From a virus: a DNA stretch of 30,468 nt. Below the pieces are notes generated by a model. The model worked only from the letters and a program-made list of their open reading frames with translations. It ran no database searches and had not been told where the DNA came from. The stretch's first letter is position 1. Each line of letters begins with the position of its first letter. The stretch spans positions 1 through 30,468 of the IMG/VR virus record IMGVR_UViG_3300035701_000189; one strand, written 5' to 3'. Of this stretch, positions 964 through 21,301 are shown piece by piece. The translations under genes were made by a program, and so were the position numbers.

Positions 964-1728
964 ATGGGACTAAAAAAGACAGTTTTCACTTTGAATGTCG
1001 GTGGGTACAGCCCTGAAATAACAGAGTTGACCTACCCGTTACTACGATACTGGGCAAATAAGATCGGGGCAGATTTCCATGTTATTACTAAAAGGAAATT
1101 CCTGGGTTGGCCAGTAGTTTACGAGAAGATGCAGATATTTCAGTTGGGTCAGGAAATGGATAATGATTGGAATATTTATATTGACAGTGATGCCATCATC
1201 CATCCCGAAACGATAGACTGGACAGAATACCTGCATAAAGATACGGTGGCTCATAACGGTAATGATATGGGTAATATCCGATGGAAATATGATGGTTACT
1301 TTCGCCGAGATGGACGCAACATTGGGTCATGTAACTGGTTGACAATTGCCAGTGATTGGTGTCTTGACCTTTGGCATCCTTTAGAAATACCTTTGAAGGA
1401 AGCCCTTACGAATATCTTTCCTACCATACCTGAATTAAACACGGTCATCACGGTAGATCACCTGATTGACGATTATACCCTATCACGTAACATCGCAAAG
1501 TTTGGTTTGAAATTTAAGAAATTATCACAGATACAGATTGATTTAGGATTAAGTGATGCAGAATTTTTATGGCATGTTTACACCCAGCCTACCAAGGAGA
1601 AAATAAATGGTTGGGATCAAATGATGAGGGATGAAAAGGGGAATCCTAAAAAAGTTCATTTTCCGGGAATAAAAGAAATACTTGATTTGTGGAATATACC
1701 TGATCGTATAAGACACTATGCCAAATAA
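964..1728 (+). CDS. Glycosyltransferase-like protein (GT-A fold, DSD motif)
   Basis: This 254-residue protein probably transfers a sugar from a nucleotide-sugar donor in the cytoplasm. The N-terminus (TVFTLNVGGYSPEITELTYPLLRYWA, shown in part by VFTLNVGGY) followed by YEKMQIF and IYIDSDAIIH is typical of GT-A enzymes of the galactosyl-transferase GMA12/MNN10-like type. D74-S75-D76 is the expected metal and nucleotide-binding DxD motif. An in-frame ATG at 919 would add 15 residues but lies at the base of the hairpin, so the ATG at 964 is preferred. The gene overlaps the giant fibre gene by 11 bases, which couples the two and suggests the fibre, or a glycan it binds, as a target. Acceptor and sugar cannot be read from the sequence. 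Confidence 0.65.
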   Translation: MGLKKTVFTLNVGGYSPEITELTYPLLRYWANKIGADFHVITKRKFLGWPVVYEKMQIFQLGQEMDNDWNIYIDSDAIIHPETIDWTEYLHKDTVAHNGNDMGNIRWKYDGYFRRDGRNIGSCNWLTIASDWCLDLWHPLEIPLKEALTNIFPTIPELNTVITVDHLIDDYTLSRNIAKFGLKFKKLSQIQIDLGLSDAEFLWHVYTQPTKEKINGWDQMMRDEKGNPKKVHFPGIKEILDLWNIPDRIRHYAK

Positions 1729-4700: not shown

Positions 4701-7700
4701 CCGATACTTGGAGTCATGTAGAAGTTGCCCATCTTGCAAATCAGGATTATGATGTGGAGGGTAACCTTACACTTGAACGACTGACTGTTAATCCGGGGTA
4801 TGAACTTGCACATTTATTTAGTTATGGGTATTATGAAGAATTATCAGTAACTCCGGGTGATACATATCGTTGGTCATTTGATGTTAAGAGAGGTACAATG
4901 ACCGATATGTGGTGGTGTGCTTATGACATGACCCATAGTCAGAATATTTTCCATGAAAGTTATTATTCTCAAACCAGTGGAACAGTTACGAGGATTTCAC
5001 GTGAATTTACTGTACCTGCAGGTTGTACACATATTGGTGTATATGTTTTACGTGATTCTGGAGTCAACGGTACTGTTTTTGTTGGCAGATGTCAATTAGA
5101 AAAGAATCATACTCCAGTATATGTAAAAACTGGTGCTTCAGCGATTGATGTAACTCAGGTAAGGACTATCACTGGTACTCTTACGGGAAAAGGTTCTTTA
5201 GTTGGATATACAGGAGGTATTGAATTATTAACAAATCATACTTTTGAAAATTCAAGTAATTGGAATTTAGTTACACATTGGACTGTTGGTGATAATGTAC
5301 TTCATGCTTCTAATTGTACCCTTTGGGAACTTGGAGCGTATCAAGGAGTAGGAGATATTAGGTGGAAAGAGGTTGTTTGTACAATGACCATAAAGAATTA
5401 CAGTTCTGGTAGTGTAAGTTTTATGGTAATACAAAGTGGGGGAAGTACAATACTAGGAACTGAAAGGAGTGCGAATGGAACTTATGTAGAATCAGTTAGA
5501 TGTGATAGTACTCTAAATGCAGCTGATTTCCGTTGGCAGGTTAGGACTGAAGGTAGCACAATGGACTTTGATGATGTGTACCTGATGATGCTTTATGGTT
5601 CCACTGTTACAGGTACTCTTACCGGTATTCCTTCAGGTGGAGGTGCTATTGCAGGAGTAACCAATGGTGTGGCATCGGTCACTGGATTAATATTCTTCCG
5701 ATTACTTGGTTCAAGTAATGGGGTTGCTACGGTTAGTGGAACTTTGGTTGGGGATGGTAAACTGTACGGTATTATTAATGGAGTATCTTCCGTATCTGTT
5801 ACATTAGTAGGTCACTGTCATCCTGCAGGAATAACAAATGGAGTTGTTACAGTATCTGGAACTTTAAAAGGTCATTGCCATCCAGTAGGAATAACAAATG
5901 GTGTAGCCAGTTGTTCAGCCACATTAAAAGGAAGGGGTTTATTAATAGGAGCTATTAATGGTGTAGCTACTATATCAGGAGTTTTACATGGACATGGTAA
6001 ATTATATGGTATAATAGATGGTGTTGCTAGTTGCTCAGCAACTACTGTTCAGGGGGGAATGGCTGGAGTATCTAATGGAGTTGCTTCGGTTACTGGTCTG
6101 GCATTTATTAATCTGTTAGGAGTTGTAAATGGTATAGCAACAGTTAGTGGAACATTGACTGGGAAGGGAGTGTTAATAGGCTTTACTGGGATTGGAATTA
6201 ATTTATTAGATACTGGTAAAGGAAAATTTGATTCAACTACAGAAGGATGGGTTCCATATGGGACTAATTCTATCTCTAATGATGCCGACTCTTTAAAGAT
6301 TGAATTTGGAACTGGTGGTAGTCAATATGGTGCTTATGTGTATCTCAGGGAAAGTTCTGATCTTAGTCAGAATTTAGTTGTTGGCAAACCTTATTTGTTA
6401 CAGGCTAAGGTAAAAGTTAATGCTGGAGCTACAATTTATTGGCAATTCCTTAGTTCTACAACTACTGCGGAAATTATATGTCAGAATACAACTTGGACAT
6501 GGATTCAATTACAATTAATTGCATTAATTTCAACTACTAATACATTTCGTTTAAGAGGCTTGGGGACTGGAGAAATTGCTTGGGTAGATGAATATTATGT
6601 TCATGAAAGTCTTGGGTCAGTACTTTCTGGAGTATTAGTAGGTAAAGGATCTTTATTAGGATCTTCAAATGGAGTTGCCTCTGTTTCAGGAACTTTATAT
6701 GGACATTGCTACCCAGCAGGCATTTCCAATGGAATTGCTTCATGTAGTGCTTTATTATATGGTAGGGCTGTATTAACAGGAACCACTTCCAGTATTGCTA
6801 CTGTGACTGGCAGTTTGCAGGGACATGGTAAATTATATGGTACTATTAATGGAGTTGCCAGTTGTTCAGCACGTCCAGTACAATTGACTATGATAGGTCA
6901 GATAAGTGGAGTGGCAACGGTTACTGGATTGATGTTTTTTAGGTTACATGCTTCATCCAATGGAGTTGCTGCTGTTTCTGCTACATTAAAAGGTCATTGT
7001 CATCCGGCAGGTGTCACGAATGGAGTTGCCAGTTGTGCAGGAATATTAAAAGGATATGCTCTCAAAGCAGGTATTGTAAATGGTATTGCTGGTTGTAGTG
7101 CTTCTTTGCATGGGCATGGGAAGTTGTACGGTACAACAAGTGGAGTTGAAACAACCGTAGGGATATTGAAGGGTGACGGAACTCTGATGGGAGCTGTATC
7201 AGGTGTTGCTTCGTTGGCTAGTTTGTTTGGAGGAACAGGTACACTGATAGGATTATTGGGTGGAGTTACAGTCACAGCAGCAGAGTTGATTGGTTGGGGA
7301 GTATTGACAGGAGAGATTGATGGTGTTGCTTTACTGACTGGTGATTTAGATGAACGTCTGCCAGGAAAGTGTGAAGGAATTATAAATGGAGTGTCATTGG
7401 TAGGGGGTACTTTGCCGGGTTGGGGAGATTTGACTGGTGTATCAAATGGTGTTACAGTAGTTACCTGTCTTTGGACTCCTTTATATGTTGGGGAGGAATT
7501 ATTAAAACCATCATTAATTACCACAGAGATATTTGAACAATCATTAATAACCACAGAACTTGCTTGGCAATCTTTAATAACAGAAGAGATTGGAGATGAA
7601 TTAGGTGGGATAGCCTTAATAACATTCATTGACATTACTAATCTTGGAGTAGTGTCTTCTGATATATTGGATCAGACAGATATTATAAGAACAATATTGA

Positions 7701-9826
7701 ATGCTGGGTATTCATTACCTATTAGATTTCCGTTGGGGACATATCGTTGTAGAAATTTATATTTACAAAATAATCAACAAATTATAATAGATGGAACCAT
7801 AAAGAATATTGATGGTATTTTATTTGATATAACACAGGATGCCTTAGAAGGGCAGAATATTATTTACATTGAGGATGCAACATCTGATCAGTTGGATTTT
7901 CTGGAAAAGTTAGTAAATGAAGCCCCTGATTATTATTATTATGTAGGTTATTTTGATGATAATTATACTATTGAAGGTGGTGGAACAGATCAGATTCATC
8001 ACAATGCTTGGGTATCAAGATTAACAGGAGTAAATAAAGTTTCTAAGTATATCACAATGAAGGACAATATTCCTACAATGCCCAATTATTGTGGAGGAAC
8101 TTTACATGTTGTTGATAATGCTATTGTAGAAGTATTATATAATGTATTTGAAGTTGATGAATGTACAAATCCTAAATTTTCAGGAAGTGGTACTGTTGAT
8201 GCAAACAGATATAACTTTGTAGACTTGAATCCTGTATGGATTTCAGGTGAAGAAGGTCATCCCGAGTTTGCGGGTTCAGGAGCAAACTTTCTTGAATGTT
8301 TCAGTGTTAGATTTGGTTATGGTTTTGAAATGACAGGTGATATAAAGTTGAGAGATGGGAAAGATAATATTATGATGTGGTATATGGATGGGTACATTCA
8401 TTTGGATGGAGTTACTTCCTACAATGCACATAATAAGAATATTGGTTTTATTATAAATATGATGGATGATTTTCCAGACATTAATTGTTTGGCCGAAAAT
8501 TGTGAAGCAGATGGATCAGATTATGAAGATGGTTTTATTGGTTACACAAGTGCAGACAATCTCACTATAAGAAACTGTGTGGCTAAAAATTGTCCCAGAT
8601 ATGGATTTTCATGGAACAGGTGGACCTCCCATGGGAACTATGCCGAAAATTTAGAGGCATATAATTGTGGTAACGCTTACAGTTTCAATAGGGGCGGTAT
8701 CACAGACATATTAACTATTAGAAATATATATTATGAGGGTGGTGGTCAACATGACAAATCTGGTGACTATCAGGCGGGAGTTGAATTGAGGAGTCAGACC
8801 GCAATCATTGGAGGTTATGAAGATATCTATAACCTCGGGATGGTTTGTGATAAACAAACCTATGGGATACTGATAATGTATAACAGAAATATTAATTTGA
8901 TATGGGATGCCACCGCCCCTGCTAAGAACAGACTCTGCGTAGGCAATCTCATACCACCGCACTCTTATGGTTATTGGTTGAGGATTGGATCAACAAGTTA
9001 CAATATAGTAATAGATGGGGGTGGTTTTTTAGAGGTTAATAATTTTAAGTATCTCTTTTATATAGAGACTGGCTCTACAAATATAGTTATAAAGAATTGC
9101 AACTTTAGTAGTTATACGAACCTTGGAATAATAGATTCATTAGTAACGTTTCAGAATAACTGGTTCAAAGGAGTGTTCTTTGCCACAGGATATCCGGGAG
9201 TTCCTCTATCAGGACTCCTTCTGCGATTTGATGCATCTCTTGAAGTGACGCGTTCTGGGGAAGATGTATCCGCATGGGGAGATCAGAGTAGTTCTAATAA
9301 TGACGCAACTCAGATTACAACTGCATTACAGCCACATTATATTGCAAGTGCAGTCAATGGATTACCAGCAATAAAGGGAGATGGAGCAGATGATATAATG
9401 GCACTTGCAAACACTATTGTTTGTAATGGAGATTTTGTAGTATTTGTAGTAATAGGAGGAAGTTCTGATCCGTCTTATATGTGGGGGCATAGTTCAGTAA
9501 TATATACCCGACCAAGATTATTAATCACAACTTGGAGAAATAGCACAACTCATTCCTTTGATCATTCTAATAAACCTTTAACTACTGGATATTTTATACA
9601 TCACATGGTCAGACGATCAGGGAATGTTAGAAGTTATAGAAACAATGTTGAGAGTTTGACAGGAGCGATAGTAAATACAACACAGTATGCAATAGGCAAA
9701 TTATTCAGTTATGGAACGAATTTTGGCGTTGGTGCGATAGCCGAATTTCGCTTATATGAGAATCTATCTGCACCAGATGAAGCCATTGTATTGGCTGAAC
9801 TAAGTACAAAATATGAACTTTATTAA
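1718..9826 (+). CDS. Giant multidomain tail fibre / adhesin (2702 aa)
   Basis: Probable receptor-binding virion protein. Domains in order (approximate residues): glycine-rich phage adhesin-type domain 5-223 (TSWTCPKNAIYVVECWGGG start); degenerate repeats 224-300; LamG-like domain 303-478; CBM-like jelly roll 497-617; second LamG-like 638-810; CBM-like domains 848-966, 981-1140 and 1166-1296; 20-residue NGVASVSGTL-type repeats 1308-1491; fifth CBM-like domain 1491-1635; repeats 1635-1925; linker with three SLIT[TE]E motifs; right-handed beta-helix about 1978-2488 (PbH1-like turns such as LTIRNCVAKNC); ConA/LamG-like end domain 2494-2702. There is no signal peptide or transmembrane segment. The beta-helix could be a polysaccharide depolymerase, but no catalytic residues can be assigned. 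Domain names rest on pattern recognition; the repeat structure is read directly. The start overlaps the preceding glycosyltransferase. Confidence 0.85.
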   Translation: MPNNTYNSTANTSWTCPKNAIYVVECWGGGGGGASYGRTTAAHGSNGGGGGAYAKSTVTCVKDTVYTIGVGNGGAGATTNNSNGTNGTNSQFNNSAVRAAFGGRGLVAGSTPGVAGTVANCIYTNVAYQGGNGATYALMVAGGGGGGASNVAIGNNASGATGGVGGGGGSNGGTGGASNTSGTASPDRAGGGGGGAGGNLGTTIKSGGTGNNGQIIITWNDWIIGSADTTQANAPCTGTIHGHGKLYGSSDTTAANANVTGHLSAHMPISGVSNGSCTPACSGTLVPTSVVEYISGTTGLSSKVTEDFDFDANPIWNNANWNQGIGTVISDAGWYGDSVFGNSNYPGSLAYYDGIFCKDQYSQTSIAHRENDDYFFGAAVRVSLNNGYCFGVDTNGYRLWKVVSSVYSLITSGSVTVADSDVFRLEIIGTTLRMFKNGVQVGTDQTDSDLSAGNPGVGGIGWDSYTANDNFEGGNLLVSGRLTAKGSLKGEIPLGIDIAVNGTFDGDTDWSKTSGWTITGEELVATSVPAYNGVTQSNGGYDVGKRYRIEYTITQYTSGSVEFYFGGGGTGNGADRSSVGTFVEYLVPETDDGYYGLGALGSGFTGHIDNLSIRVVVGSIVTGTLTGKVYLSGASGAVTVSDDFSSSYSPLHNSPDWDQAQNSMASSGGLAYPNTSDVETGAYRVGSFNPNQWAQVTITDATDAGCVGVGLRGSSGNYYGFYYSNYTDEWWIFRCTPTFSSLLSGSGTHTTGDVLRLEIFGDILIAYKNGVKVGSITSSTIISGNIGIVGYGTGAANNTITDFQGGSLVSFVIGTLGTAVVAGAITGVTNGVATVSMVSPHHLRGTTDHDECTNGGFDADSDWAKGAGWTISDGVASNPGGNNYATLSQGSYTIGRRYSITFSITAYTSGTIRPYFENSLGTYRSAIGTYTEELYCDFDTLRLITGGTGFNGSIDNVSIRIIGGATITGVLKGKGRLRGCDLLQNLIPNSEELDADTWSHVEVAHLANQDYDVEGNLTLERLTVNPGYELAHLFSYGYYEELSVTPGDTYRWSFDVKRGTMTDMWWCAYDMTHSQNIFHESYYSQTSGTVTRISREFTVPAGCTHIGVYVLRDSGVNGTVFVGRCQLEKNHTPVYVKTGASAIDVTQVRTITGTLTGKGSLVGYTGGIELLTNHTFENSSNWNLVTHWTVGDNVLHASNCTLWELGAYQGVGDIRWKEVVCTMTIKNYSSGSVSFMVIQSGGSTILGTERSANGTYVESVRCDSTLNAADFRWQVRTEGSTMDFDDVYLMMLYGSTVTGTLTGIPSGGGAIAGVTNGVASVTGLIFFRLLGSSNGVATVSGTLVGDGKLYGIINGVSSVSVTLVGHCHPAGITNGVVTVSGTLKGHCHPVGITNGVASCSATLKGRGLLIGAINGVATISGVLHGHGKLYGIIDGVASCSATTVQGGMAGVSNGVASVTGLAFINLLGVVNGIATVSGTLTGKGVLIGFTGIGINLLDTGKGKFDSTTEGWVPYGTNSISNDADSLKIEFGTGGSQYGAYVYLRESSDLSQNLVVGKPYLLQAKVKVNAGATIYWQFLSSTTTAEIICQNTTWTWIQLQLIALISTTNTFRLRGLGTGEIAWVDEYYVHESLGSVLSGVLVGKGSLLGSSNGVASVSGTLYGHCYPAGISNGIASCSALLYGRAVLTGTTSSIATVTGSLQGHGKLYGTINGVASCSARPVQLTMIGQISGVATVTGLMFFRLHASSNGVAAVSATLKGHCHPAGVTNGVASCAGILKGYALKAGIVNGIAGCSASLHGHGKLYGTTSGVETTVGILKGDGTLMGAVSGVASLASLFGGTGTLIGLLGGVTVTAAELIGWGVLTGEIDGVALLTGDLDERLPGKCEGIINGVSLVGGTLPGWGDLTGVSNGVTVVTCLWTPLYVGEELLKPSLITTEIFEQSLITTELAWQSLITEEIGDELGGIALITFIDITNLGVVSSDILDQTDIIRTILNAGYSLPIRFPLGTYRCRNLYLQNNQQIIIDGTIKNIDGILFDITQDALEGQNIIYIEDATSDQLDFLEKLVNEAPDYYYYVGYFDDNYTIEGGGTDQIHHNAWVSRLTGVNKVSKYITMKDNIPTMPNYCGGTLHVVDNAIVEVLYNVFEVDECTNPKFSGSGTVDANRYNFVDLNPVWISGEEGHPEFAGSGANFLECFSVRFGYGFEMTGDIKLRDGKDNIMMWYMDGYIHLDGVTSYNAHNKNIGFIINMMDDFPDINCLAENCEADGSDYEDGFIGYTSADNLTIRNCVAKNCPRYGFSWNRWTSHGNYAENLEAYNCGNAYSFNRGGITDILTIRNIYYEGGGQHDKSGDYQAGVELRSQTAIIGGYEDIYNLGMVCDKQTYGILIMYNRNINLIWDATAPAKNRLCVGNLIPPHSYGYWLRIGSTSYNIVIDGGGFLEVNNFKYLFYIETGSTNIVIKNCNFSSYTNLGIIDSLVTFQNNWFKGVFFATGYPGVPLSGLLLRFDASLEVTRSGEDVSAWGDQSSSNNDATQITTALQPHYIASAVNGLPAIKGDGADDIMALANTIVCNGDFVVFVVIGGSSDPSYMWGHSSVIYTRPRLLITTWRNSTTHSFDHSNKPLTTGYFIHHMVRRSGNVRSYRNNVESLTGAIVNTTQYAIGKLFSYGTNFGVGAIAEFRLYENLSAPDEAIVLAELSTKYELY
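1795..2340 (+). repeat. Low-complexity GGA/GGT (polyglycine) tract inside the fibre gene
   Basis: Runs of GGAGGA and GGTGGT encode polyglycine stretches of 4-7 residues within the N-terminal domain of the fibre. The domain pattern (sW..p, then veCWGGGGGG, then a GGGGGAYA segment) is that of the glycine-rich domain found in phage adhesins, where polyglycine helices pack together. The tract contains many GGAGG strings that look like Shine-Dalgarno sites by chance. Confidence 0.8.
5640..7490 (+). repeat. Array of ~60-bp / 20-aa repeats in the fibre gene
   Basis: About 23 consecutive units of consensus G-x-x-N-G-V-A-S-V-S-G-T-L-x-G-x-G-x-L-x, mostly exactly 60 bp, with 57- and 54-bp variants. 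The array is interrupted at about 6190-6620 by a carbohydrate-binding-like domain. Unit ends fall into classes (GHCHPA, GR.LL, GHGKLY, VQ..M, FF.LL) that recur in the same order. The block from 6659 to 6950 is 291 bp, or 97 residues, and the classes at 5828-6118 follow the same order, showing a higher-order repeat. Degenerate copies also occur at 2390-2580 and between the earlier lectin-like domains. Confidence 0.9.
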
Positions 9827-9837
9827 ATTAAAATACA

Positions 9838-10143
9838 ATGGGTAAAATATTTGTTGATCAAAGTAGTTTAAGAGTCACTCTGGATACAGGAGTGAATTGT
9901 TCAACGGCATTAAGTAGAAAAATAAGATATTGTGATCCTGATGCTATTGAAGGAGAATGGGATGCCTCATTACATCCAACAAATAATAATTATATTTTTT
10001 ATGATTTACAATCAGATGAATTATTTATGGAAGGTGTTTGGACATTCTGGGCATATGTAGTGTTTGCTGATGGTAGGGATGCTCCGGGGGATCCCATCTG
10101 TGTTAAGGTTTGGGAAGAAGGAGCATGTAGTTATAATAAATAA
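9838..10143 (+). CDS. Small beta-sandwich tail/baseplate protein, BppU_N-like
   Basis: This 101-residue protein has the pattern of a small Ig-like or jelly-roll domain: a short N-terminal strand (GKIFVDQSSLRVTLDTG), RKIRYCDPDAIEGEWDA, YDLQSDELFMEGVWTFWAYVVFADG and a last strand CVKVWEEG. The alternation of a kxxDG-like turn with a W-x-F-W-A-Y-V strand resembles the N-terminal domain of baseplate upper proteins (BppU_N) and small proteins encoded next to phage fibres. It starts 11 bases after the fibre stop behind an A/T-rich leader. A fibre-attachment or minor tail role fits the position; the family match is uncertain. Confidence 0.5.
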   Translation: MGKIFVDQSSLRVTLDTGVNCSTALSRKIRYCDPDAIEGEWDASLHPTNNNYIFYDLQSDELFMEGVWTFWAYVVFADGRDAPGDPICVKVWEEGACSYNK

Positions 10144-10147
10144 AGCA

Positions 10148-10585
10148 ATGATAAACTTATTTTTAAGACGAATGTACTTTAAACCAGATTACACGATAGG
10201 AAACCTATACGTGGGAGATCGGTTTATTTGCAATACCTTGGAAGATACCGTAAGGGATTTGAATGCGGATGGGGATTTGGATGATCCGGGTGAATGTAAG
10301 GTATATGGTGAAACTGCTATTCCTTACGGAAGGTATGAAGTAAAGGTTACATACAGTCCCAAATTCAAACGTGACCTTCCTTTGGTGGTGGATGTAAAAC
10401 ACTTTACTGGAATCAGGATACATCGGGGTAATACTGCCAAAGATACTTCTGGTTGTATATTGGTGGGGGAGAACACTCAGAAAGGTAGAATTACGAATAG
10501 TGCATTTCATGAAAAAGCAGTCATTGCTATGTTAAAAGCATACATTACGGCAGGGGAGACAATTTATATTAATATAATTAAGTAA
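10148..10585 (+). CDS. DUF5675 family protein
   Basis: This 145-residue protein matches the DUF5675 pattern: FICNTLEDTVRD near residue 29, an AIPYGRYEVKVTYSPKF strand pair, and the signature GIRIHRGNTAKDTSGCILVG near residues 94-113. The His and the Ser-Gly-Cys-Ile are spaced much as in YkuD-type L,D-transpeptidase active sites, so a cell-wall-related activity is possible but unproven (inference). The frame is open upstream to 10064 inside the previous gene. The start at 10148 is preferred because it lies 4 bases after the previous stop and removes a long overlap; an ATG at 10172 is the alternative. In many phages this family sits near lysis or tail genes. No holin-like gene is seen beside it. 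Confidence 0.65.
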   Translation: MINLFLRRMYFKPDYTIGNLYVGDRFICNTLEDTVRDLNADGDLDDPGECKVYGETAIPYGRYEVKVTYSPKFKRDLPLVVDVKHFTGIRIHRGNTAKDTSGCILVGENTQKGRITNSAFHEKAVIAMLKAYITAGETIYINIIK

Positions 10586-13069: not shown

Positions 13070-14317
13070 ATGCCATGGACCACAGCTGATGTAGATAGTC
13101 ATAAGAAGGGATTGAGTGATGAGCAAAAGAAGAAATGGGTTGCCACAGCCAATTCCGCTCTTACCGCTTGTATAAAGAAAGGTGGAAATGACAAATCCTG
13201 TGCCCCACAGGCTATACGAATAGCCAATGGGACAACAGGACATGAAGAAGGGTACGCTACTCATAAGAGTATGCAAGAACCTAATTACAAAGTAACTAAC
13301 CGCAAACATCAAGGGAAGCAACATTTGGTTGTTCCTGTTATAATGATGGTTGAAGGAGTTCATCATGGAAATCATGGGCTTTTATTCCATTCCATAGATG
13401 AACTTGGAAAATACCCTGAATCCTGGAATGGGATTCCTGTAGTAGTAAATCATCCAGAGATAGAGGGTGTGTCTGTTTCGGCCAATTATCCCGATATTAT
13501 AGATGAACAGACCATTGGTCGTATCTATAATACCTTTATAGATGGAAACAGATTGAAAGCTGAAGCATGGATTGATGAAGAAAAATTAAGAGTATTGTCT
13601 GCTGAATTGCTTGCACAGTTGCAAAAAGGGGAATTGATAGAAGTCAGTGTTGGAGTATTTAATGATGAAGAGATTGTGGCAGGTGATTGGAATGGAGAAC
13701 ACTATGTTGCCATTGCTAGAAATCATAGACCGGATCACTTAGCACTTCTGCTCGGCAGTGTTGGTGCCTGTTCTGTGGCTGATGGTTGTGGTATACGTGT
13801 TAATATAGATGTTAATAATTTAATTAAAAAGGAGGTTGAAATTATGGCAAATGAATGCACCCCCTGCGTCAAAAACAAGGTAGATGAACTGATTGAAACC
13901 AGTCAGGGCAAATACACTGAGGATGACAGGGAGGTTCTACAGACTTTGAGTGTACCGATGTTGGACAAAATTGCCCAGCCCGTTACAGTTGATAAGATTG
14001 TAGAGGTGGAAAAAGTCGTTGAAAAGGAAGTTCAAGTGAATGTCCTTTCTGATGAAGACAAAGCGGCTCTTGAGTATGGTAAAACCCAGCTTAAAGAGAA
14101 TCGTGAGAAACTGGTCAAGAATATTCTGACCAATACAAAGGATGTCTGGACACAGGCTCTTTTGGATGCTAAGGATCTGGATGATCTGAAAAGGATAAGT
14201 GGGATGATTAAAATGGAAGATGTAACTGATTACTCTCTGTTAGGTGCGGAGGCAATCCAAATCAATGAGGGTGTTCCGGTGATGCTTCCTATGTTTGTTG
14301 AGGATAAGAAAAAATAA
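13070..14317 (+). CDS. Prohead protease-scaffold polyprotein (ChaB-like + DUF2213)
   Basis: This 415-residue protein has three parts. Residues 1-55 resemble the ChaB-like fold (WTTADVDSHKKGL, KKWVATANSALTAC, CAPQAIRIANG). Residues about 75-245 match DUF2213, a putative capsid maturation protease: GIPVVVNHPE, TIGRIYNTFIDGNRLKAEAWID, ELIEVSVGVF, RPDHLALL and CSVADGCG. H128 and S193 sit where herpes/HK97-type prohead proteases carry the catalytic His and Ser (inference). Residues 258-415 are charged and helical, with VEVEKVVEKEVQV, as expected of a scaffold. Such proteases cut scaffold and capsid proteins during maturation. Position directly before the cement and major capsid genes fits. An internal ribosome site at 13830 suggests that the scaffold is also made alone. 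Confidence 0.8.
   Translation: MPWTTADVDSHKKGLSDEQKKKWVATANSALTACIKKGGNDKSCAPQAIRIANGTTGHEEGYATHKSMQEPNYKVTNRKHQGKQHLVVPVIMMVEGVHHGNHGLLFHSIDELGKYPESWNGIPVVVNHPEIEGVSVSANYPDIIDEQTIGRIYNTFIDGNRLKAEAWIDEEKLRVLSAELLAQLQKGELIEVSVGVFNDEEIVAGDWNGEHYVAIARNHRPDHLALLLGSVGACSVADGCGIRVNIDVNNLIKKEVEIMANECTPCVKNKVDELIETSQGKYTEDDREVLQTLSVPMLDKIAQPVTVDKIVEVEKVVEKEVQVNVLSDEDKAALEYGKTQLKENREKLVKNILTNTKDVWTQALLDAKDLDDLKRISGMIKMEDVTDYSLLGAEAIQINEGVPVMLPMFVEDKKK
13830..13835 (+). promoter_or_regulatory. Internal AGGAGG for a nested scaffold start
   Basis: AGGAGG lies in the coding sequence exactly 8 nt before an in-frame ATG at 13844. Sequence and spacing are identical to those of the four strong virion starts at 13070, 14332, 14813 and 21289, so initiation here is likely. 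Confidence 0.75.
13844..14317 (+). CDS. Nested scaffolding protein (internal in-frame start)
   Basis: Initiation at the in-frame ATG at 13844 would give a separate 157-residue protein identical to the C-terminal part of the protease gene. It starts MANECTPCVKNKVDELIE, contains a highly charged VEVEKVVEKEVQV helix and further Lys/Glu-rich helices, and has no protease residues. This is the arrangement of lambda C/Nu3, where the scaffold is made both as the C-terminus of the protease and alone in excess from an internal start. Here the internal start has a better ribosome site than most genes in the window. The scaffold role is inferred from composition and position between protease and capsid genes. 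Confidence 0.65.
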   Translation: MANECTPCVKNKVDELIETSQGKYTEDDREVLQTLSVPMLDKIAQPVTVDKIVEVEKVVEKEVQVNVLSDEDKAALEYGKTQLKENREKLVKNILTNTKDVWTQALLDAKDLDDLKRISGMIKMEDVTDYSLLGAEAIQINEGVPVMLPMFVEDKKK

Positions 14318-14331
14318 AGGAGGGAAACGCA

Positions 14332-14793
14332 ATGAATATTGCTCACAACACGATTAAACTGAAGAAATACTCGGATGTCATTGAAGAACACAAGGCAGGT
14401 GGTGCGATATATCCGGGCATGCTTCTCATTATGAGCGCTGAAGATACAGTAATCGCACATAATGATAATGATCCAGCAGCCTTCTGCACGATGGTTGCTC
14501 TGGAGGATGAACTGCAGGGAAAAGGGATTGATGATCCCTATGTAACAGGGGATCAGGTTCAGGTTTGGATTCCTTACCGTGGTGATTGGGTCTATGCTAT
14601 TGCAGAAGATGGCACTAACTATACCGTTGGATCATTTGTTGCATCCGCTGGTAATGGTTATGTAAAGGCTTTCTCATCTGGTGAAGCTTTTGGGGTTGTA
14701 GTGAAAGCTATTAACCTTTCTGGTTCATCGGGGGCGGAAGATTCCGAAGCACCCTTTGGCTACAACAAGAGAATCATGATCAGAGTATTATAA
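14332..14793 (+). CDS. Putative capsid decoration (cement) protein
   Basis: This 153-residue beta-rich protein lies immediately upstream of the major capsid gene. The pattern GAIYPGMLLIMSAEDTVIAHND, then VALEDELQGKGIDDPYVTGDQVQVWIPYRGDWVYAI, is typical of small capsid-associated proteins encoded between protease-scaffold and capsid genes in phages with DUF1073 portals. Such proteins stabilise expanded capsids. It has no signal peptide or membrane segment. AGGAGG lies 8 nt upstream of the start, consistent with the high expression needed for a capsid component. The cement role is inferred from position and general pattern. Confidence 0.65.
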   Translation: MNIAHNTIKLKKYSDVIEEHKAGGAIYPGMLLIMSAEDTVIAHNDNDPAAFCTMVALEDELQGKGIDDPYVTGDQVQVWIPYRGDWVYAIAEDGTNYTVGSFVASAGNGYVKAFSSGEAFGVVVKAINLSGSSGAEDSEAPFGYNKRIMIRVL

Positions 14794-14812
14794 AAAAAAG
14801 GAGGAAAATACA

Positions 14813-15925
14813 ATGATAAATGTTGATTTAATTGGAAGCGATGGCCAGGTGCGTGGAGAAGTAGCAAACTATTTCGCCAATCAAGGGAGACTTGATCCTG
14901 GTTATATGAGACCTTTTGTACATACTGATGGCAGAAGTTATGTATCAGTATACAAAGGTACTGGTGATCCTAAAGATCCAGCAAGTTACAAGTCTATACA
15001 GACTAATGCTGGAGCAACTCTCCGCCCGAATGAGTGGAAGTTACTTGATGAAGCCGTACAGAAGGCTGCTGAAATCAGACTTGGTGGTGTGGATGATCTC
15101 GTTGGAAGAGGTTTGACATACAACCTTGGAAATGCTATGGGTACGACAGTACTTGAATGGCATGATGTTCAGGGTGACCTGGAAGCTGATCTCACAATGG
15201 ATGCTGTAACCCGTGCTCTTGGGAACCGTCCTGTCTGGCAGTACAATTACTTGCCAATACCTATCGTGCATGTTGATTATGAAATCAATGCAAGGGCATT
15301 GGCTACCAGCCGTAACATGGGTAATCCACTGGATACCACGTTGGCTGAACGTGCTGCAAGAGCAGTGATGGTAAAACTGGAGAACATGCTGTTTACCAAT
15401 ACTACTTATAGTTTTGGTGAAAAGGATAGCAGAAGTCGCAATACCATTTACAGTTACATTAATTTTCCTGACAGAAACCAGGTTTCACTGGGGACTGCAT
15501 GGGACGATTCAGCAGTAACTGGAAAGACTATTGTTGACCAAGTTATCTCCTGGAAGCAAGTCAGTATTAATGCCAAACATTATGGGCCGTGGATGATCTA
15601 CATCCCAACGACTTATGAAACCGTTTTGGATGAGGATTATGTTGGCTCAACTCCTGATACAGCTCCCAATACGACTATCCGTGCAAGGATTCTCGCAATA
15701 TCTGGAATACTTGGCATAAAGGTTATTGACACCCTCCCGGCTAACAATGTCCTGTTCATTCAGATGACATCGGATGTTGTAAGGCTGATACGTGGTATGG
15801 GTCTACAGAACGTTGAATGGCAGACTGAAGGTAAATTTATTACCAAATACAAAGTCCTGACCATACAGGTTCCTCAGATTCGTTCCGACGTATTGGGACA
15901 GTGTGGTGTAACCCATATTGCCTAA
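14813..15925 (+). CDS. Major capsid protein (HK97/encapsulin-like fold)
   Basis: This 370-residue protein forms the icosahedral shell. Recognisable features are the N-terminal RPNEWKLLDEAVQKAAEIRL helix, DLVGRGLTYNLGNAMG, IVHVDYEINARALATSRNMG near residue 147, AERAARAVMVKLENMLF near 177-193, and the C-terminal WQTEGKFITKYKVLTIQVPQIRSDV segment. This resembles encapsulin/linocin-like capsid proteins of siphoviruses. The length is right, there is no long N-terminal delta domain (a separate scaffold fits that), and AGGAGG lies 8 nt before the start. It follows cement and scaffold genes and is followed by a terminator-like hairpin, as expected of the most abundant virion protein. Confidence 0.85.
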   Translation: MINVDLIGSDGQVRGEVANYFANQGRLDPGYMRPFVHTDGRSYVSVYKGTGDPKDPASYKSIQTNAGATLRPNEWKLLDEAVQKAAEIRLGGVDDLVGRGLTYNLGNAMGTTVLEWHDVQGDLEADLTMDAVTRALGNRPVWQYNYLPIPIVHVDYEINARALATSRNMGNPLDTTLAERAARAVMVKLENMLFTNTTYSFGEKDSRSRNTIYSYINFPDRNQVSLGTAWDDSAVTGKTIVDQVISWKQVSINAKHYGPWMIYIPTTYETVLDEDYVGSTPDTAPNTTIRARILAISGILGIKVIDTLPANNVLFIQMTSDVVRLIRGMGLQNVEWQTEGKFITKYKVLTIQVPQIRSDVLGQCGVTHIA

Positions 15926-16299: not shown

Positions 16300-16698
16300 A
16301 TGGAACCTAAAGATGTCACGATCCGTTGGAAAGTTGTTTCCAGCAGAGCTTGGTATTGGGGTAAGAAAATCATGAAACCAGGGCAGATATTTTCTGCTCC
16401 TGAAAGTGCCATTCCAATAGAATTCAGACTAACAGTCATTCCTTTGGATGTTACCCTAAATATGCCAGAGAAGGAAGAATCCCAATCTATTCCTCCTCCA
16501 GAAGTGGATTTATCAATGGATAAACCCGTCATATACCGCATGAATGAGCGGGAAGATAAACATATGGAAATGGATGCGGAAGGGAAGATTATTTCACATG
16601 GTTTCTATTATGATGTAATATCTTCTGAGGGGAAAGTTATCAATGAACAACCATTGACTAAGGAACAGGCAAAGACAATGATTAAAAAACTAAAGTGA
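16300..16698 (+). CDS. Unknown virion-region protein, second tandem paralogue
   Basis: This 132-residue protein is a diverged copy of its upstream neighbour. It has IRWKVV...YWGKKIMKPGQIFSAPES...FRLTVIPLD at the front and FYYDVISSEGKVINEQPLTKEQAKTMIKKLK at the end. A proline-rich, acidic linker of about 45 residues (SIPPPEVDLSMDKP, then NEREDKHMEMD) makes it longer than the first copy. GGAGGG lies about 6 nt before the ATG. The stop overlaps the next start as TGATG. No family is recognised; the shared architecture points to two related binding or structural modules. Confidence 0.6.
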   Translation: MEPKDVTIRWKVVSSRAWYWGKKIMKPGQIFSAPESAIPIEFRLTVIPLDVTLNMPEKEESQSIPPPEVDLSMDKPVIYRMNEREDKHMEMDAEGKIISHGFYYDVISSEGKVINEQPLTKEQAKTMIKKLK

Positions 16699-17447
16699 TG
16701 AATTGGGAAGTTCCACGTATATGGGAGGGAGGAGATGTTTGGATTCTTGGAGGAGGGCCATCGGTAACAAAGCAATTTGATATTCCAGACACTCTTGTGC
16801 AAGAAGTAATGAATGGGGTTTCACCTCCCTCAATATACTCCCCTTACATGGAAGTTATCCATAAGAAGCATGTCATTGGTATTAATGCCGCATATCTGAT
16901 TGGAACTTGGATAGATATGGTTTTCTTTGGGGATAATAAATTTTTCCTTCCACATAAGGATAGATTAGCGGCATGGCCAGGTTTGAAAGTTACTTGCCAT
17001 GATGGGATTAAAGGGTATGACTGGGTTAAGTTCTTAGGTAGGGATGGAAATCATCCAAAAGGAATAACCCCTAATCCAAACATGATTTCTTGGAATGCTC
17101 ATAGTGGAGGGGCTGCAATTAGTGTTGCCGCCAATGCAGGGGCAAAGAGAATTATACTGTTAGGATTTGATATGACATTAAATGGGAATGGAGAAAAAAA
17201 TTGGCATAAACTTTATGCAGAAGAACCTACATCAGTAGTACCTGCTGGAAGAAGAGGGCAACCAAGAGATCCAAGAAAATCTCTTCCTTTTCATAAGCAT
17301 CTGTTAGGATTTCCATATATTGCAAAGGATGCCAGGATGAGAGGGATTGAAATTATTAATATCAGCCCTGATAGTGCAATTGTGGAATTTCCAAAAATGA
17401 CCTTAAAGGAGTTTTTAAATAATGAAAGTACTAATAATAAATTATAA
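16698..17447 (+). CDS. DUF115/MptE-like protein, possible glycosyl- or nucleotide-transferase
   Basis: This 249-residue protein opens with a Rossmann-type glycine motif VWILGGGPSV (G18-S22). It continues with GINAAYLIGTWIDMVFFGD near residue 56 and SGGAAISVAANAGAKRIILLGFDM near residue 135. These match the DUF115/MptE-like fold shared by motility-accessory-factor proteins and related to sialyltransferase-like enzymes. Such proteins often accompany surface glycan genes. A GTG at 16695 is possible, but the ATG at 16698 overlaps the previous stop as TGATG and is preferred. It starts the seven-gene sugar cassette. The chemical reaction cannot be assigned; nucleotide-sugar use is inferred from context. 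Confidence 0.6.
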   Translation: MNWEVPRIWEGGDVWILGGGPSVTKQFDIPDTLVQEVMNGVSPPSIYSPYMEVIHKKHVIGINAAYLIGTWIDMVFFGDNKFFLPHKDRLAAWPGLKVTCHDGIKGYDWVKFLGRDGNHPKGITPNPNMISWNAHSGGAAISVAANAGAKRIILLGFDMTLNGNGEKNWHKLYAEEPTSVVPAGRRGQPRDPRKSLPFHKHLLGFPYIAKDARMRGIEIINISPDSAIVEFPKMTLKEFLNNESTNNKL

Positions 17448-18078
17448 CCGTTTGACTCTTCCAATGAAAATGGCAGTTTGGTGTGATACACATGGACTGA
17501 CCCCTATTTTCATAGATAATCATTCGGACTATGCTCCATTGTTGGAGTACTATTATGAATGTCCTTATACTACACTTCGTTTAAAAGAAAATCATGGGCA
17601 TACTGTTATATGGAATAAAGAGGTAAATATACTACAACGTTTAGGAATAGTTAATGAAAGATATATAGTATCTGATCCAGATTTGGATTTGAGTGGAATA
17701 CCAGATGATTTCCTTACTGTACTGAATACTGGATTGGATAAATACCGGCATATTGACAAATGTGGATTTAGTCTTGAGATAAATGATTTACCTAATACTG
17801 AGGAAGGTAATTATATCAGGACTCAGGTTGAACCAAGATATTGGAGGAGTCAGTATGATAATATGTATTATAATTCTCCAGTAGATACCACATTTGCTTT
17901 ATATCGAGAAGGAGTAGTAAATTATTCCCACTCAGCAGTAAGAACGAATAGACCTTACACGGCAAGGCATGTACCTTGGTATTATTCTGATCTTACCTTA
18001 CTTTCAAAGGATGAACAATATTATTATCAGACGGCAAATGTAAATAGTGCAACAGGCAAAAAAAGGTTAGTGAAATGA
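17422..18078 (+). CDS. Glycosyltransferase-like protein
   Basis: This 218-residue protein begins MKVLIINYNRLTLPMKMAVWC and has IFIDNHSDYAPLLEYY followed by NERYIVSDPDLDLSGIP. The N-terminal strand, the DN-S turn and the D85-P-D-x-D89 acidic motif fit a family-2-like GT-A enzyme, in which the acidic motif holds metal and nucleotide. C-terminal HVPWYYSDLTLLSKDEQYYY is the pattern seen in small phage and bacterial glycosyltransferases. It overlaps the upstream gene by 26 bases and the next by 4, so it is translationally coupled. Donor and acceptor are unknown. Confidence 0.65.
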   Translation: MKVLIINYNRLTLPMKMAVWCDTHGLTPIFIDNHSDYAPLLEYYYECPYTTLRLKENHGHTVIWNKEVNILQRLGIVNERYIVSDPDLDLSGIPDDFLTVLNTGLDKYRHIDKCGFSLEINDLPNTEEGNYIRTQVEPRYWRSQYDNMYYNSPVDTTFALYREGVVNYSHSAVRTNRPYTARHVPWYYSDLTLLSKDEQYYYQTANVNSATGKKRLVK

Positions 18079-18839
18079 AATTGATTCTTGTAATGACATA
18101 TTATGAACGGCAGCTCCAACTGACTAAGACTTTGGAATCTTTGAAGAAATCTGAGTATAAAGATTTTGAAGTGATTGTAGTGGATGATGACAGTCGAAAT
18201 GATATTTTTCATAATATAAAGGAATACCCAGTAACTGTAGTGAAGATGAAGAATAAAAGGTGGACTAATCCAGAACCAGCCTACAATATGGGATTATTTC
18301 TGGCAATGAAAGCAAACCCTGATATTATTATTGTACAAAATGCTGAGTGTTATCATGTAGGGGATGTTATTTCTTATGCTACAAAGGTAACTGATTCTAC
18401 ATATTTTGCCTTTAGTTGTTTTAGTTTAGATCGGGAAAATACGTTTAAAGAACATAATGTTTTTTACCTGGCGGATAAAAATCGCCGTAGAGCCAATTTT
18501 GATGGTGATCTTGCTTGGTATAATCATCCAGTGTATAGACCTAATGCTTTTGACTTTTGTGTTGCCTTAACAGCTAAAAACATGAAGTTGTTGAATGGGT
18601 ATGATGAGCGGTTTAGTGATGGACATGCCTATGGAGACAATAATCTTATTGAAAGAGTGGGGGTACTTGGGTTACAGGTTAAAATTCCTCTCGTTCCATT
18701 TGTAGTTCATCAGTGGCATTATGTTACTCCACATCCAGTAGATTATGTCAGATTGGAGGCAAAGAATAAACTTTTATTACTTGAAATAAGAAAAGAAAAT
18801 TCATATAGGGCAAAACATATATATACAAGAGACTTATGA
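18075..18839 (+). CDS. Family 2 glycosyltransferase (GT-A)
   Basis: This 254-residue protein has the standard GT2 layout. An N-terminal MKLILVMTYYERQLQLTKTLESL leads to FEVIVVDDDSRND (D37-D39, nucleotide-binding). Then come PAYNMGLFLAMKANPDIIIVQNAEC with the second acidic/metal region, and a late NGYDERFSDGHAYGDNNLIERV segment that corresponds to the acceptor/catalytic region (galactosyltransferase C-terminal type). It is a cytoplasmic enzyme with no membrane segment. It is joined to its neighbours by ATGA overlaps on both sides. This is the clearest glycosyltransferase in the cassette; sugar and acceptor remain unknown. Confidence 0.8.
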   Translation: MKLILVMTYYERQLQLTKTLESLKKSEYKDFEVIVVDDDSRNDIFHNIKEYPVTVVKMKNKRWTNPEPAYNMGLFLAMKANPDIIIVQNAECYHVGDVISYATKVTDSTYFAFSCFSLDRENTFKEHNVFYLADKNRRRANFDGDLAWYNHPVYRPNAFDFCVALTAKNMKLLNGYDERFSDGHAYGDNNLIERVGVLGLQVKIPLVPFVVHQWHYVTPHPVDYVRLEAKNKLLLLEIRKENSYRAKHIYTRDL

Positions 18840-19048
18840 AGGTATTGCTTATAAATCCGTGGCAGAGTGATGTATTCCCTTCACCATCACTTGGCTATCT
18901 ACAAGCTACTTTGAAAGAAGCTGAGGTAGATGTCAAGGCTCGTGATTTAGATGAAGCAATGTATCTCAATGGTGGTAATTTATTTTACACTTTTGAACAG
19001 AATATTAAGACATTACAACTTTGGACAAGATTAATAAATGCAGCATGA
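18836..19048 (+). CDS. Short cobalamin-binding-like protein (N-terminal fragment of a B12 radical SAM type protein)
   Basis: This 70-residue product, MKVLLINPWQ...PSLGYLQATLKEAEVDVKARDLDEAMY, matches only the first strand-helix-strand of the B12-binding domain that precedes radical SAM enzymes. The B12-ligating DxHxxG motif, the rest of the Rossmann domain and the CxxxCxxC cluster are all missing. The last 20 residues look unrelated. Despite this it keeps ATGA overlaps with both neighbours. It may be a deletion remnant preserved for translational coupling or a shortened protein with a new role. It could be annotated as a pseudogene. Confidence 0.5.
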   Translation: MKVLLINPWQSDVFPSPSLGYLQATLKEAEVDVKARDLDEAMYLNGGNLFYTFEQNIKTLQLWTRLINAA

Positions 19049-19938
19049 AAATATTAGTAACAGGTGGAGCAGGAAATATAGGAGAGATACTGATTCCTTA
19101 TCTCAGGAGTAAAGGACATAAGGTATTCTGCATTGATATCAAACAGAAGTTTGAGGAAGGATACAGAACTGTTGATATCAATAATGGAGCTGATATTGTG
19201 AGTGCTTTCTATGAATTTAAACCAGAGATTGTTTTTCATATGGCAGCTATGGTAAGTAGGGTTACTTGTGAACATTCCCCCGTTACTACGATTAAGACAA
19301 ATGTCTGTGGTACGGAAAATGTAATTCAATTATGTAAGCAGGTGGGGGCAAAACTTATTTTCTTTTCCACTTCTGAAGTATATGGAAATTTGGTGGGTAA
19401 TTTGTCGGAGGGGCGACGTGACCTACGACCTAACAATATTTATGGGTTAAGTAAATTAATGGCGGAGCAGTTGGTAGAATATGAAATATCCAATGGATTA
19501 AATGCTGTTATTGTTCGTCCATTTATGTTTTATCATGAAGATGAATCTTTTGGAGATCACCGTTCAGCTATGATTCGCTTTGTTTATTCATTATTAAGGC
19601 ATCAGCAAATAACAGTTCATAAAGATAGTTACCGTTCATGGATGCACCTTGATGATGCCATAGTGGTTCTTGAAAAGTTATGTTATCTGAAAGAGTTTGT
19701 GATTATCAATGTGGGGAATCCTGAATTATATTCTACACAGGATATGGCAAGGATGATTTGTAAGAAGCTTGAATTATCTTATAAAGATTATGTAATTGAA
19801 ACAGCATTACCAGAAAAAATGACCTTAACGAAAGCAGCAAATTTTACTTTACAAAGTATATTGACTAAATATAATTGTTCTATATCATTGGAAGAAGGAA
19901 TTGATAGGGTAATTAAAAAGGTTAAGAAAAGATTATGA
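19045..19938 (+). CDS. NAD-dependent epimerase/dehydratase (extended SDR)
   Basis: This 297-residue protein is a member of the extended short-chain dehydrogenase family that remodels nucleotide-linked sugars. It shows the cofactor motif TGGAGNIG (T6-G13), the acidic D31 after the second strand (NAD preference), and HMAAMVS near 65. The catalytic set is S108/T109/S110 with Y133-x-x-x-K137 in YGLSK, plus an RPFMFYH strand near 160. It probably supplies the activated sugar for the neighbouring transferases. The start at 19045 is chosen because it overlaps the preceding stop as ATGA; an upstream in-frame ATG at 19021 would add 8 residues inside the previous gene. The exact substrate cannot be told. 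Confidence 0.85.
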   Translation: MKILVTGGAGNIGEILIPYLRSKGHKVFCIDIKQKFEEGYRTVDINNGADIVSAFYEFKPEIVFHMAAMVSRVTCEHSPVTTIKTNVCGTENVIQLCKQVGAKLIFFSTSEVYGNLVGNLSEGRRDLRPNNIYGLSKLMAEQLVEYEISNGLNAVIVRPFMFYHEDESFGDHRSAMIRFVYSLLRHQQITVHKDSYRSWMHLDDAIVVLEKLCYLKEFVIINVGNPELYSTQDMARMICKKLELSYKDYVIETALPEKMTLTKAANFTLQSILTKYNCSISLEEGIDRVIKKVKKRL

Positions 19939-20639
19939 TTGCTTTGATTACACCAACTGGAGCACGTCCAACACAGATTAAACTCTGTGCAGAATTTATG
20001 CATAAGCAGGATTATGAAGGGAAAGTATTGTGGGTAATTGTGGATGATGCCTTGCCGGTTACTACTAAAAATATTACATCCGACTTTCGTGAAAATTGGA
20101 AGATATTGAAAATTTATCCACAGAAGAAGTGGATGCCCGGATTAAACACACAGGCAAGTAATTTAATACGAGGTATTGAAATTGTTGAATTTTTTGAAGT
20201 TGATTATGTTTTTATAATTGAGGATGATGATTATTATTCCTCTCAGTACCTAAGTACAATGGTGAAGAAACTAAAGGGATATGACGTGGCAGGACAAATG
20301 TATACCGTTTATTATGATGTAGTGAATAAGGGATGGATGAGGAATGGAAACATTGGACATGCAAGTCTTTTCCAGGTAGCTTTTAAACCCAATATGCTTA
20401 ATATTTTCAAAACTATTTGTATACAAAGAAATAAGTTCATTGATATGAGTTTCTTTAGGGCAGTGCACCATAAAAAAGTTAATCTGTTTGATGGTCAGGA
20501 TTTAGCCATAGGGATTAAAGGACTTCCAGGTAGGGCAGGAATAGGGATGGGGCACAGGATGGATGTTAAAATGACTAGTGATGTAAATTTTGAGAAATTA
20601 AAAGAATTGATTGGGGAAGATTATAAATATTACGAATGA
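19935..20639 (+). CDS. GT-A glycosyltransferase-like protein
   Basis: This 234-residue protein begins MIALITPTGARPTQIKLCAEFM, has VLWVIVDDALP near residue 31-41 and the metal-binding-type motif FIIEDDDYY (E96-D99). A late segment, FFRAVHHKKVNLFDGQDLAIGIKGLPGRAGIGMGH, is Gly-rich. The layout is GT-A-like, resembling small phage glycosyltransferases. There is no signal peptide or membrane helix. It overlaps the epimerase and sulfotransferase genes by 4 bases each, so all three are likely made in similar amounts. Specificity cannot be deduced. Confidence 0.65.
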   Translation: MIALITPTGARPTQIKLCAEFMHKQDYEGKVLWVIVDDALPVTTKNITSDFRENWKILKIYPQKKWMPGLNTQASNLIRGIEIVEFFEVDYVFIIEDDDYYSSQYLSTMVKKLKGYDVAGQMYTVYYDVVNKGWMRNGNIGHASLFQVAFKPNMLNIFKTICIQRNKFIDMSFFRAVHHKKVNLFDGQDLAIGIKGLPGRAGIGMGHRMDVKMTSDVNFEKLKELIGEDYKYYE

Positions 20640-21301
20640 ACCAACCAATATTCATAACAGGAGTAGAGCGATCAGGTAGTTCCATGATAGCAAAGATATT
20701 TGATATTTGTGGAGTGCATAAAGGACTGACATCTACAATGTACGAAAATTTTGGAATGAATTTACTGATGGATGGATTTCTTAGTTCCAAAGTTGGTTTA
20801 TTCCCTGACATAAGAGGTTTGAGTATTCCTATGGATTGGAATGCTAAGGTGTTGGAGATATTGGAGAGGGAAGAATACAAGGATGGGTCGTGGATGTGTA
20901 AAAGTCCTAAACTGGGACAAATGTGGCCAGTTTGGAATTATGCCTTTCCAAATGCACGTTGGATTATAGTCAGAAGGAGAACGGGTGATATAGTGGAATC
21001 CTGTATAAAGACGGGGTATATGACAATGTTTAAGGATGCCAATAATTTAAAACGTGTGGGGGCAGTGGATGAAACAGAAGGATGGAAATGGTGGGTACAT
21101 CAGTATGAGAAACGATTTGTTACAATGATTGAAGCAGGAGTTAATTGCAAGATAGTATGGCCGGAGCGAATGGTAAGTGGGGATTACCAACAGATATATG
21201 AAACTCTGGAATGGTTAGGATTGGAATGGAATAGTAAAATAGTAGAAACAATTGATCCAATGTTATTAAAAAGTAGGAGGAAAACAAAATGGCATGTTTA
21301 A
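20636..21301 (+). CDS. Sulfotransferase family protein (PAPS-dependent)
   Basis: Predicted to move sulfate from PAPS to a sugar or protein hydroxyl. The 221-residue protein has the 5'-phosphosulfate loop IFITGVERSGSSM (residues 9-16 GVERSGSS), then WMCKSPKLG. The 3'-phosphate-binding segment NARWIIVRRRTGDIVESC follows near residue 107. This is the standard order of the sulfotransferase family. Its length is near the short end for the family. It lies last in the sugar cassette and overlaps the neck connector gene by 13 bases, so that gene's ribosome site is inside this coding sequence. No PAPS synthesis genes are present in the window; the host would have to supply PAPS. The acceptor is unknown. 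Confidence 0.8.
   Translation: MNQPIFITGVERSGSSMIAKIFDICGVHKGLTSTMYENFGMNLLMDGFLSSKVGLFPDIRGLSIPMDWNAKVLEILEREEYKDGSWMCKSPKLGQMWPVWNYAFPNARWIIVRRRTGDIVESCIKTGYMTMFKDANNLKRVGAVDETEGWKWWVHQYEKRFVTMIEAGVNCKIVWPERMVSGDYQQIYETLEWLGLEWNSKIVETIDPMLLKSRRKTKWHV
21275..21280 (+). promoter_or_regulatory. AGGAGG for the neck connector gene, inside the sulfotransferase gene
   Basis: AGGAGG stands 8 nt before the ATG at 21289 and lies within the last codons of the sulfotransferase. It gives the neck and tail genes their own strong start after the coupled cassette. Confidence 0.8.

Follow-up and report, generated by a model that had tools for sequence, protein, structure and literature searches.

Virion glycosylation by phage-encoded glycosyltransferases has been described in mycobacteriophages. 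According to the accounts of Freeman 2023 given in PMC12619734 and PMC12363180, phages Che8, Corndog and Myrna make use of one or two transferases, which are proposed to act on structural proteins, and glycans were shown on the capsid and tail tube. In bacteria, Maf (PMC11339370) and Caulobacter FlmG (PMC7591256) are presented as systems of cytoplasmic flagellin O-glycosylation. Here we describe a cassette of seven genes (A to G), predicted to build and sulfate a glycan, that lies inside the siphophage late operon carried by the virus record IMGVR_UViG_3300035701_000189. The window analysed spans the whole of this IMG/VR record (30,468 bases). Since phages are already on record as glycosylating virion proteins with transferases of their own, the phenomenon proposed here is of a known kind. 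The locus differs from those of the mycobacteriophages in being a hypervariable island of several genes, among them a conserved sulfotransferase, with adenosine 5′-phosphosulfate (APS) kinases added in relatives; its glycan is a prediction from the genes. Within the literature searchable here, the size and variability of the island and its sulfation component are new. The locus also resembles the Maf and FlmG systems: gene A is assigned to the MptE/DUF115 superfamily that includes Maf, the enzymes are soluble, and glycosyltransferases with an extra domain occur in relatives, as in FlmG. In contrast to those systems, gene A scores below the Pfam cut-off for PF01973, and the acceptor would not be flagellin.

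The position of the cassette is fixed across a lineage of uncultured tailed phages, which comprises about 300 IMG/VR contigs encoding related major capsid proteins (MCPs). Searches of IMG/VR returned 303 related stretches for the MCP and 342 for gene G, of which the best 80 loci of each were kept; the comparison from MCP to neck gene covers 69 dereplicated intervals. Gene A was present in 62 of these, usually 340-810 bp after the MCP. Gene G was found in 52, abutting the neck gene in 43 and separated from it by a gap of 126-549 bp in the other nine. Of the 82 dereplicated G genes, five had no neck gene in the locus; the others (77/77) all sit at most 564 bp from the neck gene, 62 of them at a distance of no more than 100 bp and 15 farther away. 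G is the final cassette gene before the neck, sometimes with only an APS kinase after it. The preliminary description had tied the cassette to the late genes and named scattered, unlinked genes in related phages as grounds for refuting it. The comparison speaks against such scattering: A and G keep to fixed places from one phage to the next, after the MCP and before the neck gene, the kind of linkage to structural genes expected of a virion glycosylation system. These fixed positions also led us to reject the reading of the cassette as ordinary scattered metabolic genes.

Meanwhile, the interior of the island is highly variable. The span between MCP and neck ranged from 16 bp (L033, an empty site) to 10,996 bp, with a median of 5,364 bp, and between A and G there were 0-12 glycosyltransferase, methyltransferase and sugar-nucleotide genes. 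Reduced forms included A-F-G (L053), A-F (L113), A alone (L008) and G alone (L072). The 62 intervals with A contained 294 middle genes, which fell into 117 clusters, 78 of them singletons. The mean Jaccard index of middle-gene sharing was 0.35 between phages with MCP identity of at least 90% and 0.05 at 50-60%; L008 and L012, whose MCPs are 96% identical, have no middle genes in common. Middle genes hence turn over faster than structural genes. Their families include GT2, S-adenosylmethionine (SAM) methyltransferases, short-chain dehydrogenase/reductase (SDR) epimerases, GT9 and FkbM methyltransferase. In the 19 long records that contain A as well as G, the A-G interval amounts to 10.6% of the sequence and holds 20 of the 22 matches to PF00535, the GT2 family (binomial p 6e-18, with matches treated as independent). 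There is thus good support for a predicted glycan island in the head operon whose site and ends are conserved and whose interior is hypervariable. Neither its hypervariable middle, nor its fixed first and last genes, nor the APS kinases had been recognised in the preliminary description.

Within the window, the seven overlapping open reading frames (ORFs) that the preliminary description placed between capsid-side genes and neck are present at 16695-21301 (Table 1). Every cassette gene overlaps its neighbours by 4-26 nucleotides. The cassette is translationally embedded among the structural genes, because the chain of overlaps runs into the gene at 16300-16698 upstream and into the neck gene downstream. 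The two genes before A, formerly taken for capsid paralogues, proved to be paralogues of each other, and the MCP is the gene that precedes both. The neck DUF4054 gene is followed by more neck genes, the major tail protein (23024) and the tape measure (24311).

Table 1. Features of the window, with coordinates in nucleotides of the complete record
Feature	Start	End	Strand	Remarks
Portal	10605			
Head morphogenesis gene	12101			
Protease	13070			
Decoration protein	14332			
MCP, HK97-fold family	14813	15925	+	PHROG 771/264 head proteins; left structural anchor of the island
g15971, small two-domain protein	15971	16297	+	Candidate glycan acceptor or docking protein
g16300, paralogue of g15971	16300	16698	+	31% identical to g15971; overlaps A by 4 nucleotides
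Gene A, MptE/DUF115-like sialyltransferase-superfamily protein	16695	17447	+	GTG start; 4-nucleotide overlap with 16300-16698
Gene B, family unassigned, possibly GT-A-like	17422	18078	+	26-nucleotide overlap with A; DPDLDL motif
Gene C, GT2 family glycosyltransferase	18075	18839	+	4-nucleotide overlap; PF00535 E 1.8e-11
Gene D, remnant of B12-binding radical-SAM protein	18836	19048	+	4-nucleotide overlap; 70 amino acids
Gene E, NAD-dependent epimerase/dehydratase (SDR) for nucleotide sugar	19045	19938	+	4-nucleotide overlap; PF01370 E 2.9e-36
Gene F, GT2-like glycosyltransferase	19935	20639	+	4-nucleotide overlap; PF00535 E 2.1e-5
Gene G, predicted 3′-phosphoadenosine 5′-phosphosulfate (PAPS)-dependent sulfotransferase	20636	21301	+	Conserved last enzyme; 4-nucleotide overlap with F; PF13469 Sulfotransfer_3
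Neck protein DUF4054	21289	21693	+	PF13262 E 3.9e-5, phrog_302; right structural anchor; overlaps G by 13 nucleotides

The ratio of nonsynonymous to synonymous substitution rates (dN/dS) against relative L004 was 0.05-0.20 for A, B, C, E, F and G, showing that the function of the cassette is kept under purifying selection. A chance run of ORFs is ruled out by these ratios and by the conservation of the locus in dozens of relatives. The families assigned are MptE-like for A (below the cut-off in Pfam), GT2 for C and F, SDR epimerase for E and sulfotransferase for G, while the GT-A-like label first given to B is unproven. Gene A matches phrog_4603, annotated as alpha-2,3-sialyltransferase (E 3e-24), and scores 16.5 bits against the Maf/MptE-like family PF01973 (E 0.007), under the gathering cut-off of 34.6. 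Its AlphaFold model (pLDDT 90) has Methanocaldococcus MptE (8sd5) as its best PDB match in Foldseek (E 3.3e-4, probability 1.00), with a TM-score of merely 0.34-0.39; weaker structural matches include human ST6GALNAC2, and the model also matches viral MptE-like proteins in BFVD. A profile search of PDB sequences gave marginal matches only. Taken from the model, gene A probably has an MptE-like fold.

Genes C and F are related to each other by profile match, and both exceed the PF00535 cut-off, as phage-encoded glycosyltransferases should; an EDDD motif is invariant in the alignment of F. Gene E keeps the Rossmann GxxGxxG and the catalytic Y-x3-K as invariant residues, and its nearest PDB relatives are nucleotide-sugar epimerases/reductases (GDP-fucose synthase/GDP-mannose 3,5-epimerase). 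The ATG at 19045 is preferred as its start, the mechanically called TTG at 19021 being less likely. Gene B matched nothing in Pfam or the PDB, and profile comparison did not link it to C or F; it is kept in eight relatives; a DxD-like motif is the sole feature suggesting that it may be a GT-A-like glycosyltransferase.

The last enzyme of the chain provides the sulfation step. Gene G matches Sulfotransfer_3 with an E of 4.3e-9 (37.4 bits against a cut-off of 27) and is strongly conserved against L004 (dN/dS 0.048). Residues R12-S13-G14, K89, R113/R114 and S122 were invariant in 28 sequences, and G thereby keeps RSG and RR...S, which we take to be the 5′- and 3′-phosphate-binding motifs of PAPS sulfotransferases. 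The nearest PDB sequences, by a weak profile match (E 0.002), are tyrosylprotein sulfotransferases. The candidate catalytic Glu near residue 37 was not invariant in the same 28 sequences. A search for APS kinases matched two long relatives, and in G018 (L161) the gene adjoins G. In six further relatives (L059, L093, L179, L185, L187 and L195), the best Pfam family of ORFs between G and the neck was APS_kinase (PF01583, E 1e-16 to 6e-22). In L032 an APS kinase located just before G (20089-20808) is fused to a cytidylyltransferase-like domain, a fusion also found in L167. The APS-kinase homologues are short, about 125-140 amino acids, and cover the first two thirds or so of the Pfam profile (e.g. 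L185:1680-2102, L179:10701-11096).

In total, APS kinases adjoin G in at least seven relatives. This lends indirect support to PAPS being the likely sulfate donor of G, and sulfation would be real chemistry here, because a phage-borne enzyme of PAPS synthesis adjoins the sulfotransferase. In the window no APS kinase lies beside G, and this phage would rely on host PAPS. The predicted sulfation capacity is, like the island locus, well supported, and the earlier proposal of a sugar-building chain ending in sulfation within the late operon finds support in the fixed positions of A and G and in the APS kinases beside G. The open-access papers searched turned up no sulfated phage particle of such kind.

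The island is also associated with the small protein g15971. A g15971/g16300-type gene lies between MCP and A in all intervals with A or G (64/64) and in two of five without (Fisher p 2e-4, with kinship between phages ignored). These two-domain proteins belong to a family with no counterpart in Pfam or the PDB and only isolated PHROG matches, and isolate relatives lacking the island showed no match to g15971. It is the fastest-evolving of the genes compared, with a median identity of 0.62 against 0.86 for the MCP and a dN/dS of 0.53 against 0.05-0.21. Larger island proteins of six relatives (L009-L012, L034 and L035) begin with its N-terminal domain as a fusion; a form of about 705 amino acids matches Capsule_synth, and a form of about 315 amino acids belongs to no Pfam family and looks GT-B-like by eye. 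The same domain is thus joined to two different glycosyltransferase-like proteins (L009:12189-14306, L011:12181-13125, L012:12514-14634). We read it as a putative shared docking or carrier domain that would bring transferases to wherever g15971 is located. A precedent for such modular recognition is flagellin glycosylation by Caulobacter FlmG in the cytoplasm, described as modular in PMC7591256.

Based on these findings, we regard it as somewhat probable that a hypervariable glycan-and-sulfate island occupies a fixed site in the order MCP, g15971-type gene, island and neck DUF4054 gene, that the cassette is one of its alleles, and that the glycan is built on a virion protein. Gene E, together with host enzymes, would provide an activated sugar. 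In the cytoplasm, soluble transferases (A, C and F, possibly also B) would then build a short glycan on a protein of the virion. The likeliest acceptors are g15971 and g16300, or else the MCP lattice where those presumably sit, and G would transfer sulfate from PAPS to the glycan. As middle genes are swapped between phages, each phage would carry a different glycan, in the manner of an O-antigen locus on a virus. We infer the reaction order, the structure of the glycan and the virion-protein acceptor from the genes and their arrangement. A broader proposal, which we advance tentatively and hold at somewhat under even odds, is that the lineage displays a strain-specific sulfated head glycan coat made by this O-antigen-like island, with phage APS kinase feeding the sulfotransferase in some members, resulting in self-built sulfated virions and variable "serotypes".

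Several points weigh against glycan assembly on a virion protein by this cassette. The virion-protein acceptor is a candidate deduced from sequence and locus, and soluble transferases can also act on cytoplasmic host lipid-linked sugars. The place of g15971 in the virion is assumed; its model has a pTM of 0.39 and no significant fold match, the association counts take no account of phylogeny, and L074 and L076 carry a g15971-like gene without A or G. Moreover, the cassette chain is not obligatory, because L072 has G without A or any other cassette gene and L008 has A without G.

The acceptor question separates this interpretation from its closest rival, in which the enzymes act late in infection on a glycan of the host surface, or on the precursor of that glycan in the cytoplasm, and thereby block superinfection or re-adsorption of progeny. 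This we consider unlikely, though it is the most serious competitor. In its favour, envelope polysaccharide loci typically contain GT2, GT9, SDR and methyltransferase genes, soluble enzymes are common among envelope transferases, gene F shows a weak resemblance to a wall-teichoic-acid transferase entry of TarS type, and the variability of the island could follow host serotypes. However, none of the 294 middle genes is predicted to have two or more transmembrane segments, so that no flippase-, polymerase- or GtrA-like protein is present, and an integrase was found in just 2 of 24 long records. A temperate seroconversion (gtr) system would combine a multi-spanning GtrA/Gtr protein with an integrase, and that reading is weakened accordingly. 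The tight coupling to capsid and neck genes and the fusion of the g15971 domain to glyco-enzymes also speak against a host-surface target, and together with the gene position, the lack of multi-spanning proteins and the rarity of integrases they favour a virion protein as the likely acceptor.

We think it improbable that G instead acts directly on a virion protein, sulfating a tyrosine or some other side chain with no part played by the sugar genes. The resemblance of G to protein-tyrosine sulfotransferases in the PDB would fit such an activity, as would the MCP-neck interval of L072, which holds only a g15971-type gene and G, and direct sulfation is possible in L072-like phages. Yet G accompanies A and glycan genes in nearly all relatives, its Glu near residue 37 is not conserved, and g15971 has no conserved Tyr, the aromatic position being occupied by Y, W or F. 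Hypermodification of phage DNA bases with sulfated sugars is very unlikely: decoration of DNA by phage glycosyltransferases is known, and there are proposals of glyco/sulfo base-modification systems (Iyer 2013, as cited in PMC10829341), but 24 long relatives contained no thymidylate-synthase-family gene (PF00303) in a search with a working control, Tet_JBP (PF12851) gave no match in a search whose control was uninformative, and the cassette sits in the head operon, not beside replication genes.

With its conserved flanks and swapped interior of transferases and sugar-nucleotide genes, the island resembles the O-antigen and capsule loci of bacteria, which share this architecture. It differs from them in having no predicted multi-spanning membrane proteins and in lying inside the structural operon of a virus. 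Another likeness is found in jumbo phages of Caulobacter and Brevundimonas, where the DUF115/"sialyltransferase" clusters are late groups of small enzymes that include an A-like gene and lie among structural genes; there the A-like gene is 24-30% identical, is located between tail and lysis genes, and no G homologue was found in the records. These distant A homologues occur in the cultured phages CcrBL9 of Caulobacter (L206, 119097-123622) and Kabachok of Brevundimonas (L207), within late clusters of mostly unannotated small genes, and could be experimentally tractable. Among 50,697 records of isolate phages there was no match to sulfotransferase G. Isolate relatives have empty island sites and give no clue to the host, and a host search matched short binned contigs of unrelated phyla, naming no host.

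These findings have implications for the understanding of phage particle surfaces. A lineage of hundreds of contigs maintains a fast-changing biosynthetic island in its head operon, while only a handful of isolates, having one or two transferases, are known to glycosylate their virions. If the glycan sits on the virion, heads would have variable, charged, sulfated surfaces, which would bear on how particles adsorb, how stable they are and how lectins or antibodies recognise them. The co-location of structural and glycan genes makes this a directly testable system.

One member of the cassette is no longer intact. In L004, D (14031-15143) encodes 370 amino acids with radical-SAM (PF04055, E 1e-23) and B12-binding (PF02310, E 6e-9) domains. 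Compared with the DNA of L004, the window lacks 900 bp in frame near an imperfect direct repeat (GATTTAGATGA/GATTTGATGA), which deleted the radical-SAM core and retained both overlaps with neighbouring genes. Relatives L041 and L043 have no D gene between C and E. D thus appears to be a dispensable step lost by this phage with the reading-frame coupling kept, because its core is deleted in the window and the gene is absent from L041 and L043. The earlier label of cobalamin-binding-like fragment had missed that the gene is broken. A cobalamin-dependent activity in this phage was rejected, D being without a radical-SAM core.

Upstream of the portal, the window contains an ORF of 2702 amino acids (1718-9826) that carries a glycine-rich domain (PF21722, E 4e-13) at its N-terminus and has no match in the PHROG comparison, possibly a very long fibre and a further candidate glycan acceptor. 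This giant gene is flanked at 458-901 by a protein with a Gp80-like podophage fibre domain (PF23140, E 2e-15) and at 10064-10585 by a DUF5675 protein (E 3e-31).

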